Source of the DNA: Sipunculus nudus
Taxonomy: Eukaryota > Annelida > Sipuncula > Golfingiida > Sipunculidae
Assembly: GCA_026874595.1 (NCBI GenBank)
Contig: CM049309.1
Coordinates: 11,398,576 to 11,462,575, forward strand
Reading direction: 5' to 3'
Length of the DNA: 64,000 nt
Shown: positions 19,785 through 62,801 of the stretch, piece after piece
How the letters are laid out: every line of letters starts with the position of its first letter
Numbering within the stretch: the stretch's first letter is position 1
The notes under the pieces: generated by a model
Database searches by the model: none
Told to the model about the DNA's origin: nothing
The model's input: only the letters and a program-made list of their open reading frames with translations
Program-made: the position numbers and the translations under genes

Positions 19785-21712
19785 ACTAGACGACCATAGG
19801 TCGAACGCTTGCCGGAATTCGGAAGTGAAACACAGACGGACAGACAGAACATATTGTCGGTTTTCTAATAATGGAATGACTCTCAGAGACATTGCTGAGA
19901 ATATGTGGCCCGTAGAATGACATATGAGACAAAAGAACAGGCAAGCAGACAAAGCTGACAACAAAAGACGAACAGACAGACATACTGACTTTGTGAGACA
20001 AGATTGACACCAGATGACATAAGCTAGTTATTGAGAAGATACAAAGGAAGAATATGAGTTATAATTTATGTAATTTAGATTTATAGTTTACGAGGTATGG
20101 CGAATTAATGATATACTTGGGAGGCTCGACTGTAGCGCCCTCTAGCAGACATATTCCGAAGACGACAAATGCGTTTCGTATTATTAGTGTATGACATGAG
20201 ATGTCTCAGTTTCAAAAGGATTCCGTCAAAGCTGTGGCCTGTAGAATGCTCTATGTAAGGCGTAAGAACCAGCAAGCAGGCGACTTTGAGGATAACGGAC
20301 AAACAGATGGACACACTGACAAGTGACAGAAGATACAAACCAGATGCCTTAATCAGGTTATGGAGAAGACTCAAAGGAAGAAAATAAGCTATAGCTTATG
20401 TAACTGAGGCTTTGGGTGTAGAGTTATGGCCAATACAATGGTATGTGTGTGAGAGTCATGTGCAGCGCCCACTAGTAGCCATATCCGGAAAATGAAAAAT
20501 TTATTTCTAGATATTAGTGTAAGACACAAGATGTAATAGTTTCAAAAGGATTCCGTAAAAACTGTGGCCTACAGAATGCTATATGTGAGACGCAAGAGCC
20601 AACAAGCAGGCGAATTTGAGGACAACTGACAAACTGACGAAAACACTGACAAAGTGACTCAAAATTGAGTCCAGATGACTTTTCCAGGTTATGGAGAAGA
20701 CTCAAAGGAAGAAAAAAGCTACAGTTTATGTAACTGAGGTTTATAGTTTTGGAGATATTGCCAAAGCATGATATGTTGGGAGAGGTTCGAGTTCAGCGCC
20801 CCCTAGCGGCCATATCCGGAAAATGAAAAATTGGTTTCGAGATATTAGTGTAAGACTTAAGATGTAATAGTTTCAAAAGTATTCTTTTAAAACTGTGGCC
20901 TGTAGAATGCTATATGTGAGACGCAAGAGCAAACAGGCGAATTTGAGGACAACTGACAAACAGACGGACACAATGACAAAGTGACACAACATTGAGATCA
21001 GATGACATTATCAGTTTATGGAGAAGACTCAGAGGGAAAAAATAAGCTATAGTTTTTTTTATTGAGGCTTTGGGTTTTAGAGATATGGCCAATGTAATGA
21101 TATCTGTGTGAGGGTCGTGTGCAGCGCCCCCTAGCAGCCATATTCAAAAAATGAAAACATCATTTCGAGATACTAGTGTAGGACTTATGATATGTCAGTT
21201 TCAAAAAGATTCCTGCAATAATGTGGCCTTCGGCGCAAGATGAATGAAATCTCGAAATATCTCTATTCACGAGATATTTTACGAGATACTGCAAGACTTA
21301 TAATAAAATCTTGTAGTACTAGTTGAGAGCTACCTGATGCAAAAACTAGATCACTCTAGCTTTAAAACTGACAAAGTTAGAAAAATAAGATCCCTTATTT
21401 TCGAATATCATGACTTTTCCCCAAAAAATTGTAACCATGGTTACGGCAAATTTGAGTCAGCTACACACCAGATGACAGGCCTTGGCATGACGATTAAAAT
21501 GAGCTATTGTTGAAGTAGATACGACTAAAAGTCACAAAGATATGAAGAAAAAAACGTTTTGAGAAGTTTTGACGACCTTGACCTTGACCTTTGACCTACT
21601 TTAACCAAAAACAATAGGGCACCTAGAAATTATGTTTTCCAACATCCCTGTAAGTTTCAAGGTTATTGTGGCAAAATTGTGGCCAGGAGAGTGGTGACAA
21701 ACAAACAAACAA
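19785..21712. repeat. Array copy 1
   Basis: The copy begins ACTAGACGACCATAGGTCG and holds subunits A-D and the tail. It differs from copies 2 and 3 by scattered substitutions and by CTATATG rather than CTTATATG in subunit B, so it is the more diverged full copy. Confidence 0.85.
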
Positions 21713-23635
21713 ACTAGACGACCATAGGTCGAACGCTTGCCGGAATTCGGAAGTGAAACACAGACGGACAGACAGAACATATTGTCGGTTTTCTATTGAT
21801 GGAATGACTCTCAGAGACATTGCTGAGAATATGTGGCCCGTAGAATGACATATGAGACAAAAGAACAGGCAAGCAGACAAAGCTGACAACAAAAGACGAA
21901 CAGACAGACATACTGACTTTGTGAGACAAGATTGACACCAGATAACATAAGCTAGTTATTGAGAAGATTCAAAGGAAGAAAATGAGTTATAATTTATGTT
22001 ATTTATATTTATAGTTTACGAGGTATGGCGAATTAATGATATACTTGGGAGGCTCGACTGTAGCGCCCTCTAGCAGACATATTCCGAAGACGACAAATGC
22101 GTTTCGTATTATTAGTGTATGACATGAGATGTCTCAGTTTCAAAAGGATTCCGTCAAAGCTGTGGCCTGTAGAATGCTCTATGTAAGGCGTAAGAACCAG
22201 CAAGCAGGCGACTTTGAGGATAACGGACAAACAGATGGACACACTGACAAAGTGACAGAAGATTGAAACCAGATGCCTTAATCAGGCTATGGAGAAGACT
22301 CAAAGGAAGAAAATAAGCTATAGCTTATGTAACTGAGGCTTTGGGTGTAGAGTTATGGCCAATACAATGGTATGTGTGTGACAGTCATGTGCAGCGCCCA
22401 CTAGTGGCCATATGCGGAAAATGAAAAATTTATTTCTAGATATTAGTGTAAGACATAAGATGTAATAGTTTCAAAAGGATTCCGTCAAAACTGTGGCCTA
22501 CAGAATGCTTATATGTGAGACGCAAGAGCCAACAAGCAGGCGAATTTGAGGACAACTGACAAACAGACGAAAACACTGACAAAGTGACTCAAAATTGAGT
22601 CCAGATGACTTCTCCAGGTTATGGAGAAGACTCAAAGGAAGAAAAAAGCTACAGTTTATGTAACTGAGGTTTATAGTTTTGGAGATATTGCCAAAGCATG
22701 ATATGTTGGGAGAGGTTCGAGTTCAGCGCCCCCTAGCGGCCATATCCGGAAAATGAAAAATTGGTTTCGAGATATTAGTGCAAGACTTAAGATGTAATAG
22801 TTTCAAAAGGATTCTTTCAAAACTGTGGCCTGTAGAATGCTATATGTGAGACGCAAGAGCAAGCAGGCGAATTTGAGGACAACTGACAAACAGACGGACA
22901 CAATGACAAAGTGACACAACATTGAGATCAGATGACATTATCAGTTTATGGAGAAGACTCAGAGGGAAAAAATAAGCTATAGTTTATGTAATTGAGGCTT
23001 TGGGTTTTAGAGATATGGCCAATGTAATGATATCTGTGTGAGGGTCGTGTGCAGCGCCCCCTAGCAGCCATATTCAAAAAATGAAAAAACAATTTCGAGA
23101 TACTAGTGTAGGACTTATGATATGTCAGTTTCAAAAAGATTCCTGCAATAATGTGGCCTTTGGCGCAAGATGAATGAAATCTCGAAATATCTCTATTCAC
23201 GAGAAATTTTACGAGATACTGCAAGACTTGTAATAAAATCTTGTAGTACTAGTTGAATGCTACCTGATGCAGAAAACTAGATCACTCTAGCTTTAAAACT
23301 GACAAAGTTAGAAAAATAAGACCCCTTATTTTCGAATATCATGACTTTTCCCCAAAAAATTGTAACCATGGTTACGGCAAATTTGAGTCAGCTACACACC
23401 AGATGACAGGCCTTGGAATGACGATTAAAATGAGCTATTGTTGAAGTAGATACGACTAATAGTCACAAAGATATGAAGAAAAAACCATTTTGAGAAGTTT
23501 TGACGACCTTGACCTTGACCTTTGACCTATTTTAACCAAAAACAATAGGGCACCTAGAAATTATATTTTCCAACATCCCTGTAAGTTTCAAGGTTATTGT
23601 GGCAAAATTGTGGCCAGGAGAGTGGTGACAAACAA
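21713..23635. repeat. Array copy 2
   Basis: Complete copy, nearly identical to copy 3. The shared CTTATATG insertion in subunit B and the shared tail variants show that copies 2 and 3 come from the latest duplication. Confidence 0.88.
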
Positions 23636-25555
23636 ACTAGACGACCATAGGTCGAACGCTTGCCGGAATTCGGAAGTGAAACACAGACGGACAGACAGAA
23701 CATATTGTCGGTTTTCTATTGATGGAATGACTCTCAGAGACATTGCTGAGAATATGTGGCCCGTAGAATGACATATGAGACAAAAGAACAGGCAAGCAGA
23801 CAAAGCTGACAACAAAAGACGAACAGACAGACATACTGACTTTGTGAGACAAGATTGACACCAGATAACATAAGCTAGTTATTGAGAAGATTCAAAGGAA
23901 GAAAATGAGTTATAATTTATGTAATTTATATTTATAGTTTACGAGGTATGGCGAATTAATGATATACTTGGGAGGCTCGACTGTAGCGCCCTCTAGCAGA
24001 CATATTCCGAAGACGACAAATGCGTTTCGTATTATTAGTGTATGACATGAGATGTCTCAGTTTCAAAAGGATTCCGTCAAAGCTGTGGCCTGTAGAATGC
24101 TCTATGTAAGGCGTAAGAACCAGCAAGCAGGCGACTTTGAGGATAACGGACAAACAGATGGACACACTGACAAAGTGACAGAAGATTGAAACCAGATGCC
24201 TTAATCAGGCTATGGAGAAGACTCAAAGGAAGAAAATAAGCTATAGCTTATGTAACTGAGGCTTTGGGTGTAGAGTTATGGCCAATACAATGGTATGTGT
24301 GTGACAGCCATGTGCAGCGCCCACTAGTGGCCATATGCGGAAAATGAAAAATTTATTTCTAGATATTAGTGTAAGACATAAGATGTAATAGTTTCAAAAG
24401 GATTCCGTCAAAACTGTGGCCTACAGAATGCTTATATGTGAGACGCAAGAGCCAACAAGCAGGCGAATTTGAGGACAACTGACAAACAGACGAAAACACT
24501 GACAAAGTGACTCAAAATTGAGTCCAGATGACTTCTCCAGGTTATGGAGAAGACTCAAAGGAAGAAAAAAGCTACAGTTTATGTAACTGAGGTTTATAGT
24601 TTTGGAGATATTGCCAAAGCATGATATGTTGGGAGAGGTTCGAGTTCAGCGCCCCCTAGCGGCCATATCCGGAAAATGAAAAATTGGTTTCGAGATATTA
24701 GTGCAAGACTTAAGATGTAATAGTTTCAAAAGGATTCTTTCAAAACTGTGGCCTGTAGAATGCTATATGTGAGACGCAAGAGCAAGCAGGCGAATTTGAG
24801 GACAACTGACAAACGGACACAATGACAAAGTGACACAACATTGAGATCAGATGACATTATCAGTTTATGGAGAAGACTCAGAGGGAAAAAATAAGCTATA
24901 GTTTATGTAATTGAGGCTTTGGGTTTTAGAGATATGGCCAATGTAATGATATCTGTGTGAGGGTCGTGTGCAGCGCCCCCTAGCAGCCATATTCAAAAAA
25001 TGAAAAAACAATTTCGAGATACTAGTGTAGGACTTATGATATGTCAGTTTCAAAAAGATTCCTGCAATAATGTGGCCTTTGGCGCAAGATGAATGAAATC
25101 TCGAAATATCTCTATTCACGAGAAATTTTACGAGATACTGCAAGACTTGTAATAAAATCTTGTAGTACTAGTTGAATGCTACCTGATGCAGAAAACTAGA
25201 TCACTCTAGCTTTAAAACTGACAAAGTTAGAAAAATAAGATCCCTTATTTTCGAATATCATGACTTTTCCCCAAAAAATTGTAACCATGGTTACGGCAAA
25301 TTTGAGTCAGCTACACACCAGATGACAGGCCTTGGAATGACGATTAAAATGAGCTATTGTTGAAGTAGATACGACTAATAGTCACAAAGATATGAAGAAA
25401 AAACCATTTTGAGAAGTTTTGACGACCTTGACCTTGACCTTTGACCTATTTTAACCAAAAACAATAGGGCACCTAGAAATTATATTTTCCAACATCCCTG
25501 TAAGTTTCAAGGTTATTGTGGCAAAATTGTGGCCAGGAGAGTGGTGACAAACAAA
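23636..25555. repeat. Array copy 3
   Basis: Complete copy. It differs from copy 2 at only a few sites, including a 4-base loss of AGAC in the ACAGACGGAC stretch near 24814. Confidence 0.88.
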
Positions 25556-32831: not shown

Positions 32832-33003
32832 TAGGGCCCTGCGCGGGCTAAAAAATTGAACCCGCACCGGTCCCGCATCATAACCTGTCAGCCCGCAGCC
32901 CGCCCAAAGAAATAAACTCAGCCCGCGTCAGAGAAGTCATTTCGGCCCGCCCCGCCCCGCCCCGCACTTTTCTCAGATGCAGCGGGCCCCGCGCAGAGCC
33001 CTA
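32832..33003. mobile_element. GC-rich hAT-like MITE
   Basis: A 172-bp block starts TAGGGCCCTGCGCGGGC and ends GCCCCGCGCAGAGCCCTA, so it has ~17-bp imperfect terminal inverted repeats with the YA-x-GG start typical of hAT elements. It is a reverse-orientation copy of the repeat at 10449-10658. No clean 8-bp target duplication is seen; a CA microsatellite adjoins the right end. Confidence 0.65.
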
Positions 33004-33004
33004 T

Positions 33005-33005
<1 letters not shown>

Positions 33006-33054
<49 letters not shown>
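33006..33054. repeat. (CA)n microsatellite
   Basis: About 21 CA units between the MITE and the LINE. Confidence 0.9.
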
Positions 33055-33055
<1 letters not shown>

Positions 33056-33150
33056 TCTTTATAAAGCTTTATCCAAAAGGATGCTTAATTAACAAAAAGA
33101 GAGCCCATGCGATAGCACATACGTCATCAAGCCGAATATATTACTATATA

Positions 33151-35413
33151 ATAATAAATAGTAATGAAGAAGTCCGCTTAAATCGTAAATCATATTCTGA
33201 TTATATGGAGAGTCTTAACGAACGGCTAGACAGTTCTGACAGCAAATCTTTTTGGCAAAATGTGAAACATATAATTGGCAATAAAAGGGAAAGCGTAATT
33301 CCTCCTCTTTTACATGATGGCGAATTAGTTACTGATGACCAAGAAAAAGCCGAAATGTTTAACCAGCATTTCATCTCACTTTTCGAATTATCTGATTCTT
33401 CAAATCACACGAATGACACGAGTTTCACAACACAGTCAACACATAATGGACATCAACGATTATCCAATATTAACATAAATCCTGAGAACGTCCTGAAAAT
33501 ATTAATGGATCTGAATCCAAGTAAGGCCACTGGGCCTGATGATATTGGTAATCATCTGTTGCGCGCAACAGCCAAAAATATCTTTATACCTCTCACTAAG
33601 ATTTTCAACATATCCTTACAGACAGCCACATTCCCGACCCCATGGAAACGGGCAAATGTTACTCTAGTTTATAAAAAAGGGGATAGAACCAAACCACTAA
33701 CTATCGACCTATACTCTGTTGTGTAACGTTTCCAAGGTATTTGAAAGAGCAGTGCATGATGCACTTTATGCATTTTTAGTAGTAATAAAATCCTCATATA
33801 GACAATAACTCTGGATTTAAAAAAGGAGATTCTACTATTAACCAGCTTGTGGCAATAATGGATAAAATTTATCGTGGTATTGATACAAAATGTGATGTCA
33901 GAATGGTCTTTCTGGACGCCACTGCTGCATTCGACCGAGTGTGGCACGACGGTCTCTCCATTAAATTATCTAACTCAGGGATTCAAGGATCCATACTTAA
34001 CTGGCTAATTGATTATGTTAAAAATCGCCACCAACGAGTTGTTGGTAATGGTATAAGGCGTCAAGCTGGCAGTCGACGTCAGCAGGAGTCCCTCAGGGTT
34101 CTATTTTAGGTCCATTGCTTTTCCTTATATATGGAAATGATATTAATTCAGGTATTGAATCAGATTTGCATCTCTTCGCCGATGATACATGTCTCCTTAA
34201 TGTTGCTACTAATCCACTCTCCACTGCTCGTATAATCCAGCATGATCTAGCTGAATACTCTTGAATGCTGGGCCCGGAGTTGGCATGTAAAATTTAATCC
34301 TACCAAAATTGTCGCAATGACTTTCTCTTAATTCTCTTGTAGGTAAAACACATCATCAAACCTTGTACCTGAATGGCGAACCTTTATCTGAGACTCAAAG
34401 CCACAAACACTTGGGAATAACTTTATCATCAGATCTGTCATGGTCCGAACATATTTCCAATATTTGCATTCAAGCCAATAAAAAAATAGGACTACTAAGA
34501 CGTCTGAAATATAACATAAGGCGACATACACTGGACCACTTATACAAGTCACATGTTCGTTCAGTCCTCGAGTATGGAAATGTAATATTTGATAATATGA
34601 GCATATCAAACTGTAAAAAAACTCGAAAATATCCAATACGAGGCTGCTAAGCTGGTCACAGGAGCACTTCCAGCGACCAGTTATGATAAACTTTTATATC
34701 TGAACTTGGCTGGCATACATTAGAAAGCAGACGAACAAAATCTAAGCTATGTTTATTCTATAAGTTATATCATGGTCTGTGTCCAGTGTTCATGTCACGA
34801 TTAATGTGTGCTTCAGTCTCATGCAGACGTTACACCTCGGAACCTAAGAAACGATATAGTGACTTGCGCCCGCCACGTGCATGAACTGAAAAATACAAAT
34901 CGTCGTTCATTCCATCTTGCACAGTCCTATTGAATTCATTAGATGCGTCATTAAAAAATGCAGCGTCATTAAATTGTTTTAAATCTTCACTAAACAGATA
35001 CCTTGGCTTAGCGTCAGACCCCCAATTATATTATAGTTATGGAAAAAGAAAGCAGAATATTTTAATATTAAGACTTATATAGGCTCGGCCATAGCTGCAT
35101 CCAAGATTATCTATATAGACATGGCCTATTCGAAATTAATCAATGTCCACACTGTGGAATGGTTGAATCATCTGTTCACTTCTTCTTAATGTGTCCATAC
35201 TACGGAATAACACGACAACTGCTACTAGAGCAATTACAAAATATAATCCCTGATATAATAACTTCTTTCATTTCAAATCCAGGCAGACAACAAACCGATT
35301 AATTAATGTCTATCTTGTTACATGGGTCATCAGATTTCAGTATAATAGTCAATCAGTGTATAATTGATCACGTCTTCACATATCTTAAATCATCAAGACG
35401 TTTTTTATGCTGA
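33151..35413 (+). pseudogene. Reverse transcriptase ORF of the LINE, broken by frameshifts and stops
   Basis: The copy is inactive. Visible blocks are: NPSKATGPDDIGNHLL (33514-33561, RT block 1-2); FKKGDST near 33815; FLDATAAFDRVWH (33909-33947, with the first catalytic Asp); [16 protein letters not shown] (about 34085-34132); LFADDTCLL (34172-34198, FADD at 34175-34186 with the second catalytic Asp pair); HKHLGITLSSDLSW near 34402; LEYG near 34568; and a C-terminal CPHCG...H...CPYY zinc-finger-like motif (35144-35203). The ORF ends at TGA 35411-35413. Frameshifts occur near 33700 (before the YRP block), near 34065, near 34260 (in-frame stop) and near 34615. The catalytic residues themselves survive. 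It was an RNA-templated polymerase for target-primed reverse transcription. Confidence 0.85.
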
Positions 35414-57826: not shown

Positions 57827-57909
57827 TTTATGACACTGGATATGCGAACACATGCACACACACACATATATATACATGTATATACATGTATAGTAGAATC
57901 AAATTTTGT

Positions 57910-57974
57910 CAGACATATTTACTACTACGTAGTTTCGTGCAGCATCTGCTGCACTCATCAGGTACGAATGTCTG
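57910..57974 (-). ncRNA. Type I hammerhead self-cleaving ribozyme
   Basis: Read 5'-3' on the minus strand, all parts are present in order. Stem I 5' strand is CAGACAT-TCG-TAC. The core box is CTGATGA. Stem II is GTGCAGC-AGAT-GCTGCAC (7 perfect pairs, AGAT loop). The GAA box is followed by stem III ACTACGTAGT (3 pairs closed by a 4-base loop). The cleavage triplet is GUA. Stem I 3' strand is GTA-AAT-ATGTCTG. Stem I has 3 pairs next to the core, a 3x3 internal loop and 7 outer pairs. Very short stem III with a loop-bearing stem I and loop II is typical of type I hammerheads in metazoan Penelope-like elements and small circular retrozymes, which usually need a dimer for full activity. No Penelope reverse transcriptase is visible next to it. 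Only one copy is present in the window. Confidence 0.85.
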
Positions 57975-58181
57975 ATTGAAATGGTATGTTACATACCAAG
58001 TTATTTCATAATCAGGTTTAATAAACTCGAAATGGAGCCCTTCGTTGTGATCCTCATAAACTCCTCCAAGGGGTATTATGCTTTCACCAGTGTTTGTTTC
58101 TTTATTGGCAGGAATATCTAATAATCATAACCATGAATCGCCCTTGATAAATGAAACTCAGTATGTGATATTTTATTCCAG

Positions 58182-58524
58182 ATCAACATATTCAAACATG
58201 AACATGTGGATGGAGGTATTGGAGCCGGCGCCGAATCCGTTCGAACAAGCCCGCAAAGCGCAGGACGCTGAGTCCACACCGAGTCCTCGAGTCGCTCCAG
58301 CAAAAATCCCTGTCCCACCTCCTAAACCTCCACCAATCAAAAACGACGAAACACAGACTGAGCCAATAGGCGCTTGGGTTTCTCCGACGGAAGTGAGGGA
58401 GTCGTCTGCCAGAAGACCGCATTCACAGCAAAGGCAGCTTGCAAGACCTAAAAAGTATAATGGACCAGTTCTGACAAAATACCAGAAGCAAGCAATACAG
58501 GCCAGAGAACACGACCACGAAGAG
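58182..58524 (+). CDS. Exon with start codon (residues 1-109)
   Basis: The acceptor is TTTTATTCCAG ending 58181. The donor GTGAGA begins 58525, after a complete GAG codon (phase 0). Coding is placed from ATG 58198. It encodes the proline- and charge-rich N-terminal half ending REHDHEE. The GC content is much higher than in the flanking introns, as expected for coding DNA. Confidence 0.82.
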
Positions 58525-61500
58525 GTGAGACTTAGTATACAGGCCACGTGATCTTGTTGAGAACTCTTTTTTTTTATAAAATCAAAAACGTGTACGATTC
58601 TTTTTGATAATTCCCCTCTGAATTCTAAATGATGCGGATTTGTTCTCATCTTGAATATTTCTTTTCATATGAAACAAAACAAAGAAAATCGTGGAGATTC
58701 AAGCCCGAATACAAAGTCATTATGTCACCAAAACGAGCAGTTGCAAAGCAAATGGAGAAACTCATATATAAATTCGCGACTACATGATCCTTAGTTTTAA
58801 CAATATTGAGTCACTATATTAAAGTTTCATTAAAGTTGACAGCTGTAACCTTTTTTCATTATTAATAACAGTTCCCACAAAATGCTTAATAATAATAATA
58901 ATCATCATCATATAGCAATCTATATTTCAATTAACGGTGTTCTCACTCCTGCTTTTTCATAGAACTTCTCTTAGCCACGACTCAGATATATGCTCAATTT
59001 TTGGGTCTTGAACTGTCAGGAAGATGCCAAGAGTGTCCTTTGGACAGTCATTTTTCATATTTCCCCATAAAATTTGGGAAATTTCAAATTTTCTTCGAAG
59101 GGGCTTTCACATCACCATCTATCAGAAACTACAGCCGTGCATCGTGTAGGTAAACTTTCGTATTTGGAACATGTAGGTAAACTGTCCAATTTGGAACAAA
59201 GATAAACTGTTTTTCAAGTGCATCATATTAAACGGATAATGAGCTAATAATACTCAAAATAATAATAATTATTACTTATAATAATAATAATAACATACAC
59301 TAAAGGTAAAAAAAAATGAAACTCTATTATATTTGTTCTTGTTTCAGCACCCTGACGCGCGGCCCGTTCACCTGAACTACAGCAAGTCTGGCGGTTACGA
59401 CGACTATCACCGTGCGTTCCTCAAGTTACAGGCGTCCAAAATGCGTCCCTCCTACCCGCTGGCCGGCCCACCGAGGTACTTCACTTGTGTACATACAGGT
59501 CCTGTTATCAGAAAACCTAAACCTGCTTTAACTGATAGGAGGGTTACTATATTTCACATATGAGTCTTTGATGTCAATACATACAGCAGGGTGACGCTTT
59601 ATTTGAACTATTCTAAGGACATATTTATTCAACAGCAAAACTAACGCCTGTTTGTTTTCACAGTATACACCCGGCATTTTGTTGAGTATTCCCAAACTCG
59701 AAATATGAGTCATTTTCATTAGCACACCTTAAACTTGTTTAATACATAAATTTGCAACGTTATGTGCTATATTTATAACAGAAGGATATAATATGTAAAG
59801 TTGAATCAGTCACAAAATAAAAATTTTGTACGACTAAATAGAAGTTCTTTCGAAGTACTGTAGTATTAAGTTACTCATAAGATTTTTCTTCAGACTACTG
59901 AAATCAATCATTCACAGGTATAAAGATAAACTTGCGTGTACACCATCCCAGAAACTTTAGAATTAAAGAGCTGAATTGGAATCTTGTGATGGAAGAGCAA
60001 TAAATTTTACATGCGTTATAACAATTCCAACAAATATATGACTCCTATATCCACTGCGGCACATAGAAATATGCTTTACATGTTACTTAAATCAAACATT
60101 CAAGTGCATCTTTTGAGTAAAGAATGGATTTCAACAGTTATAGAGAAGATGTGTTTCAGTGCATTTATAATGGCCTATAAAGCAGTAGATTAAAATTTTA
60201 TTATTTTTTTCTGTTGCTAGGATACGACATGGGAAGATGGGATGCGGATGGCGACACGTTAAAGAGGTTCTACAGGCAGGCGGTAACAGAATAGTCTTCG
60301 TGGATGGTGAGTAAAAATGGATACTAGAAAACGCGCCAAAAAAATTAAGCAGACGACAGTGAATGTGTGATCATATTAATAATAAAAAAAAGGCTCTTGT
60401 AAATCTACAAGTTGTATGTACATTCACTAATAATGAGTGCCATCTTGTGTTTTATTTTGAGAACTAACTTAGCTTTATTCTAAAAGGATATATTTCTACT
60501 GTCAATCCTTATTTTTTTCTTTATATTAATAGACAGATTACCATGGGTAATAACATTTTACCAACATGTCTGTAATATGATTTAAGACATAGTTTAATTA
60601 ACAGGAAAAATATAAAACTTGATTGTACTCAAAGAGCGCATCACTCCGCTAATATCTTTTGCTGCTTCTAGGTCTCGCCTGAAAATTTGAAATATCCGTC
60701 CCAGAATTTAATCGCATTTAGTTCTTTTTCAGTGGATGACATGTGCGGTCAGATTTTCACGAGCGATGTTTTCTCTTAGCTTGTCTGCATAGTCACTCCA
60801 AATTACTTAATCCATTTCATTATGGTTTTGTGGAAAGAAAGACATTTACCAAGGGGAAGAGATTAAATTTTTGGATAAAATGTGCGGACAAAGGAACAGC
60901 AAAGGACAACAGTGAAGAATTTTAAATTTTCTGGATCCGCATCTAAATCATTAATTATATCGATCTGCTCTCTCCTTCTTTCAAATTTTAACAATAATTC
61001 ATTTACCCATGGTTCATCCCTACACAAAATGTTATTCTTACTATTGAAACATTTTTTTTTTGGGGGGGGGGGGGGGGGGGTATTGGAAGATGGAAGACAG
61101 ACAAAAAGAAGTTGGCGGAAATTACAAAGAATAATTTCGATCAAAAACAATAGATCGCGCTATTGTTCAATACTGGTGCAATTTTTTTTACTTACACCAC
61201 TTCATATTTAAAGTGAAAGAACTTAAGGCAAAATCATTTGATTCCTTTTTTTAATGATTTAACTTCATCTAATGAGTAGAAATGACTACAGATGACTTTA
61301 TAAGTTACATCTTTTATTAACATGCACTATTATATATTTTATACATATTAATTGGTGAGTACTTGTAAATAATGAACTAAGCTACACTTGGAGCTGTGTG
61401 TCACACTGTTTGTGTCAGAGCTTGTTTATGTGCTTTATGTGCTACCTGGCCGGCTAAAGTAAAAAAAAAAAAAAAAAAAAAATCCACATATACATCAAGA

Positions 61501-62636: not shown

Positions 62637-62707
<71 letters not shown>

Positions 62708-62801
62708 CTATAAATTTACTAGTTATTCTGCAATTATTATCTTCTATAGTTTTTATTTCTGCAATAAACAGAAACTACCTAGTAGTAAACATGTCTGACA
62801 T

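Follow-up and report, generated by a model that had tools for sequence, protein, structure and literature searches.

What accounts for a complete hammerhead ribozyme (HHR) on the minus strand of a 64,000-nucleotide stretch of the Sipunculus nudus genome (C4:11398576-11462575, the window)? We conclude that the ribozyme, at 57909-57975, is very probably a solo fragment of the terminal repeat of a Penelope-like element (PLE), left by a truncated insertion, and that the piece is probably a short, inert relic without a host role. Cervera and de la Pena, in 2014, and Lunse et al., in 2017, are said to have described HHRs in the pseudo-long terminal repeats (pseudo-LTRs) of PLEs. An HHR in a PLE terminal repeat is an already known kind of sequence, on record since 2014 according to the citations in two of the papers that we draw on (PMC7761336, PMC11167929), and the window copy is a well-preserved example.

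A type I hammerhead ribozyme and its parts

When the minus strand was read directly, 57909-57975 was found to form a complete type I HHR with an intact core. The first-pass annotation of this DNA was right about the ribozyme, its strand, its location and its parts; the 65 nt that it delimited stop one pair inside the outer stem I. The sequence carries the type I core, CUGANGA...GAA...A...UH, together with three helices, and its 5′ and 3′ ends join in stem I, the open end of a type I ribozyme. Stem I is broken by a 3 × 3 internal loop into an outer part (57968-57975 paired with 57909-57916, 8 bp) and an inner part (57962-57964 with 57920-57922, 3 bp). Stem II pairs 57954-57948 with 57943-57937, and stem III pairs 57933-57931 with 57926-57924 around an ACGU loop; the 10 nt of stem III form a perfect palindrome. 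The cleavage triplet is GUA, with the cut predicted between 57923 and 57922. The features of the locus are as follows:

57909..57975, minus strand: type I HHR with a complete core (read directly; descriptor scan, alignment, family model and shuffles)
57881..57995, minus strand: outer bounds of what is very probably a solo PLE terminal-repeat fragment of about 100 bp, whose 3′ end runs into a TATACATG microsatellite (extension alignment)
57864-57892: microsatellite at the 3′ end of the solo fragment
57962..57975, minus strand: 5′ arm of stem I, with the outer 8 bp, the inner 3 bp and the 5′ side of the internal loop
57955..57961, minus strand: CUGAUGA core box
57937..57954, minus strand: stem II, 7 bp, with an AGAU loop
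57934..57936, minus strand: GAA box
57924..57933, minus strand: stem III palindrome, ACUACGUAGU, with 3 bp and a tetraloop in the monomer and 10 bp between two paired copies
57922..57923, minus strand: predicted cleavage site, after the A of GUA, inferred from the core
57909..57922, minus strand: 3′ arm of stem I

A descriptor scan of the window returned the HHR site as its sole match. A loose form of the HHR descriptor matched 212 times in 6000 dinucleotide shuffles of the window, or 0.035 times per window; an earlier run of 600 shuffles had given 16 loose matches, one of them with 6 bp or more in both stem II and the outer stem I. With helices as long as those observed, a threshold set after the motif had been seen, none of the 6000 shuffles matched. 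The fold energy of the ribozyme was also low (z = -4.25), and none of 200 shuffles was equally low. The reading that the site matches the hammerhead consensus by chance could draw on the loose-descriptor rate and on Rfam scores that fall below threshold (see below), but the absence of the observed architecture from the shuffles, the 74 copies of the core in the genome, with none for a control, and the association of the HHR with endonuclease frames leave us almost certain that chance is not the explanation.

Folding predictions suggest how the ribozyme might behave. In the monomer, the active register of stem III made up about 2% of the predicted ensemble, and a competing 5-bp hairpin about 85%. 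Two stem III palindromes, in turn, were predicted to pair with each other at -12.9 kcal/mol. In this model, the window HHR probably cleaves poorly when alone and without a partner.

Genomic copies and Penelope-like frames

The genome searched comprises 1.43 Gb in 153 contigs. A 91-nt query gave at least 43 matches (40 scored of 660 candidates), which, the window itself aside, were mostly 85-91% identical to the query, with a minimum of 81%. A pattern of the core with 22 fixed letters matched exactly at 74 places, all on contigs C1-C17; its reversed control had no match. One 15-mer starting at the cut matched 221 times against 15 for its control, which corresponds to about two hundred copies. 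From 49 full-length places we aligned 40 copies. The nine left out were the same places as other rows (L017, L023, L057 and L061), near-identical to L069 (L067 and L071) or degraded (L058, L063 and L066); the near-duplicates L018 and L022 were both retained. Standard pairs occupied 90.2% of cells in this alignment. In 22 of the 40 copies the core was intact and the cut base allowed, and the cut position itself (17) was A in 31, C in 6, U in 2 and G in 1, so that the base was allowed in 39 of them. Judged from their sequences, the aligned copies look like decaying insertions. A family model built from the same 40 copies scored the window copy at 99 bits, rank 4 among 46 matches from 42 sources, a value that is not independent because the window copy is one of the 40 training rows.

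These figures bear on the suggestion, made in the first-pass annotation, that the ribozyme had been exapted. It would then process a host transcript near a putative exon at about 58183-58551, and the intact core and high family score could be taken to favor such a role. The score is good but not exceptional, however, lying within the range of the other copies, and more than half of the aligned copies, as counted above, keep the same core and allowed cut base. Moreover, the HHR was found on the strand opposite the putative exon and not on the sense strand, and the active stem III is a minor part of the predicted ensemble. The annotation had placed the HHR 200 bp from a host gene and antisense to it; the antisense position stands, but the gene itself is unproven, because the open frame has no match in Pfam or in the Protein Data Bank (PDB). 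We regard exaptation as highly improbable.

It is the frames found beside other copies that point to a PLE. Broken frames with a GIY-YIG-like signature lie upstream of the HHR in L059, L066 and L075; the Pfam GIY-YIG model matched those of L059 (E 6.5e-4) and L075 (E 0.013), both below the curated cut-off. A 47-aa endonuclease query taken from L059 had at least 150 matches in the genome (150 scored of 1404 candidates), in open frames of up to 764 aa. Twenty of these loci were fetched for the frame; an HHR was present in 19, and in 18 it lay downstream of the GIY-YIG match on the same strand, which is the order expected of a PLE. At a locus on contig C12, two HHR cores 2665 bp apart flank frames broken by stop codons and frameshifts; the stretch after the first HHR is similar to that found 3′ of the HHR in solo copies, here called the leader. 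A further PLE-type locus that carries an HHR, L091, has an open frame of 610 aa. Tandem or partial tandem units, inverted repeats and 5′ truncation, all traits of PLEs, were each found among the genome copies. The position of the HHR 3′ of the GIY-YIG frame and its doubling around the broken C12 frame thus lend substance to one origin offered in the first-pass annotation, a solo Penelope-type terminal repeat. Within the window, no match of a tblastn search with the PLE frames had an E value lower than 0.54, consistent with the earlier statement that no Penelope-like reverse transcriptase adjoins the ribozyme; because no PLE protein frame lies in the window, we call the copy a solo fragment and not an element.

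Several observations weigh against the ribozyme itself or against its assignment to a PLE. The first-pass annotation had named a sub-threshold Rfam covariance score as evidence against the ribozyme and, taken literally, that is what was obtained. The Rfam scan of the window gave zero HHR matches at the gathering threshold, a 201-nt scan around the HHR gave no HHR family up to E 10, and the best result of an 86-nt scan, Hammerhead_HH9, reached 14.6 bits (E 0.22) against a cut-off of 52. The HHR of L081, a relative located downstream of an endonuclease frame, also fails (14 bits against a cut-off of 48.5). Because this endonuclease-linked copy fails too, we take the public Rfam models to be insensitive to this HHR family, which escapes them. 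Covariation in the 40-copy alignment was not above that of shuffles, and therefore the aligned copies cannot serve as separate evidence for the HHR fold. As to the frames, the HHR of L096 is on the strand opposite the endonuclease, L087 has no HHR, and some of the 20 loci are neighbors and so not independent (for example L079/L080, L085/L094 and L078/L095). The 610-aa frame of L091 matched no Pfam or NCBIfam model, and a PDB sequence search with it was without a match. Its GIY-YIG domain is assigned through likeness to the L059 piece. By its motifs FDVVDFYPSI and YRDDG, which are those of Penelope reverse transcriptases, the frame has a putative reverse transcriptase domain. Finally, the 29 copies whose ends are described below were collected by HHR similarity, and therefore copies cut inside the HHR are under-sampled.

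The architecture of the ribozyme is a further point on that side. In the cited part of one review, PLE forms lack helix III or loop contacts, whereas the window HHR has a 3-bp stem III with a tetraloop and an 8-bp closing stem I (PMC7761336). We consider this fuller stem III and stem I a modest difference. In other respects the copies here resemble the HHRs of PLE pseudo-LTRs as described in the relevant sections of two reviews: a type I core, a PLE frame in tandem units, a palindromic stem III suited to dimers, and solo copies dispersed in animal genomes (PMC7761336, PMC6466107). The Penelope elements of the rotifer Adineta vaga, in the portion of their description used here, combine terminal repeats in direct and inverted orientation with partial tandems, truncation at the 5′ end, solo repeats and head-to-head arrangements (PMC3846280). 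Opposite-strand partial copies, truncations and solo repeats are likewise found in our set; that portion of the rotifer account has no mention of a hammerhead, whereas one is present here.

The fuller architecture could instead be that of a non-autonomous retrozyme, a tandem repeat of 150-450 bp with type I HHRs that is copied via small RNA circles, which was another origin proposed in the first-pass annotation. By having a stem III and an outer stem I that closes, the window HHR goes beyond the minimal PLE form of the reviews, in the part cited (PMC7761336), and the cited section of another paper gives a 2-bp stem III with a tetraloop as typical for the HHRs of invertebrate retrozymes (PMC7229834). 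Same-strand pairs of 15-mers were also found close together: 41 and 100 bp apart among the first 100 of 221 matches listed for one word, 136 bp apart among the first 100 of 181 listed for a second, and 82 bp apart for a word in the HHR 5′ arm. According to that section, metazoan retrozymes without LTRs resemble the present repeat in that they are dispersed in animal genomes and carry a type I HHR whose stem III is short and ends in a tetraloop, but they are short direct tandem repeats (PMC7229834), whereas here full HHRs were not seen in such arrays and the repeat is associated with a protein-coding element. The window is without a second full HHR, and the genome search for tandem copies that the annotation had proposed gave 74 core matches, no two of which lie on one strand less than 1 kb apart; HHR-bearing units in short direct tandem were thus found neither in the window nor among these matches. 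Given also that the HHR accompanies endonuclease frames in nearly all of the loci fetched for the frame, mostly in PLE order, we think a retrozyme very unlikely.

Insertion ends, the cut site and a proposed mechanism

If the window HHR is, as we think very probable, a truncated PLE insertion, the ends of the copies may hold a record of how they were inserted. In the extension alignment, the window copy extends past the aligned HHR block by about 16 nt on the upstream side and, before the microsatellite takes over, by about 22 nt on the downstream side. Among the 29 copies, the 5′ end lay no more than 37 nt upstream of the block in 18 and farther out in 11; the 3′ end lay within 31 nt downstream in 18, at 45 nt in one and between 92 and 154 nt in the other 10. 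Many of the 3′ ends fall at TA or CT repeats. Six copies (L021, L029, L035, L037, L040 and L041) had low extension scores and a 5′ boundary essentially at the HHR. Six of 28 genome loci (L027, L029, L031, L039, L040 and L041) had opposite-strand partial copies next to the HHR.

Counts of 15-mers along the repeat, given as matches minus those of the reversed control, climbed from 5′ to 3′: 43 upstream of the HHR (54-11), 92 in its 5′ arm (94-2), 168 across the cut (181-13) and 206 starting at the cut (221-15), the upstream counts being confounded by sequence differences between subfamilies. With A at position 17 in 31 of 40 copies, a ratio of 0.78 between the count across the cut and that at the cut would be expected; the observed ratio (168/206 = 0.82) does not fall below it, and therefore no step at the cut site is seen. 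In the genome 15-mer counts, then, insertion ends do not accumulate where the ribozyme would cut. Since there is no step beyond base variation, the inserted RNA, as far as the sequences of the copies tell, seems to have been uncut. This agrees with what is described for the Poseidon element of Anolis carolinensis, whose enzyme, in vitro, starts copying internally, prefers AT-rich DNA and uses uncut RNA as its main template (PMC11167929). Poseidon is also alike in having an HHR near the start of the open reading frame in tandem units (PMC11167929); it differs in that the open region of the C12 unit starts downstream of the HHR, after the leader.

Together, these observations suggest a possible mechanism. 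Transcripts of tandem PLE units would carry HHRs one unit apart, and neighboring HHRs may pair via the palindromic stem III and cut, releasing RNA of unit length. According to the pertinent section of a review, HHR dimers depend on a tandem arrangement and on a palindrome within the loop of stem III (PMC6466107). The PLE enzyme would nick an AT-rich site and start copying in the leader, just downstream of the HHR; copying would then proceed back through the uncut HHR and end some tens of bases farther on. The window copy would be a truncated insertion of this type, and the other short copies may have arisen likewise. With about two hundred copies, and with PLE-type loci that have long HHR-carrying frames, such as L091, both insertion ends and RNA ends are open to study in this genome.

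We also considered that transcripts of scattered solo HHRs might pair, through the 10-nt palindrome, with the HHRs of active PLEs and complete double hammerheads that cut, in which case accumulating solo relics would dampen the element through cutting in trans. We hold this to be a long shot.

Related repeats, other frames and hammerhead-like motifs

The window holds a second relic of the same PLE family:

62658..62800: inverted leader (62750-62658), then the 3′ half of the HHR on the plus strand (62771-62800), then (TC)n(TA)n

Elsewhere in the genome, GIY-YIG frames form series with a constant spacing of about 2.4 or 2.9 kb at C17:31677819-31690082, C3:95742018-95753220 and C9:65453111-65467918. 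Frames in the C17 and C3 series reach 718 aa and those in the C9 series 764 aa, with 56-58% identity to the query; the spacing on C17 is 2427 bp. A genome search with PF01541 gave 12 matches, 9 of which were long frames on small, bacterial-looking contigs and were rejected as not belonging to the PLE family. These nine frames, of 621-637 aa, are on contigs C61, C62, C64-C66, C72, C75 and C89, and several are equal in score. To us they look like bacterial uvrC genes, which suggests that bacteria were co-sequenced in the assembly. In a PDB search with the GIY-YIG piece, viral glycoproteins came up 30 times, always weakly (E 0.057 and above), and we took these matches as chance.

The stem II pattern was also searched for in other collections. 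In a contig collection it gave two bacterial matches, both rejected: L002 does not fit the HHR descriptor, and L001 fits its loosest form only. The same pattern had no match in viral contigs. A wider pattern found 14 loci in the viral contigs, with HHR-like motifs at the pattern site in L012 and L015. The family model placed these motifs, from IMG/VR, at L015:5712-5787 (E 0.0012) and L012:808-878 (E 0.009), each HHR-like with a 5-bp stem III. Neither had an Rfam match at cut-off. Perhaps the two motifs represent a family of phage HHRs that lies outside Rfam.

Elsewhere in the window, an open frame of 280 aa (32884-33726) had no Pfam match at E 0.001; it includes a stretch that, we presume, resembles the reverse transcriptase of a long interspersed nuclear element (LINE). 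Two tandem repeats were also noted, one at 1270-2313 with a period of 143-146/289 bp, and one of about 330 bp that is arranged in three blocks at 19967-25078.
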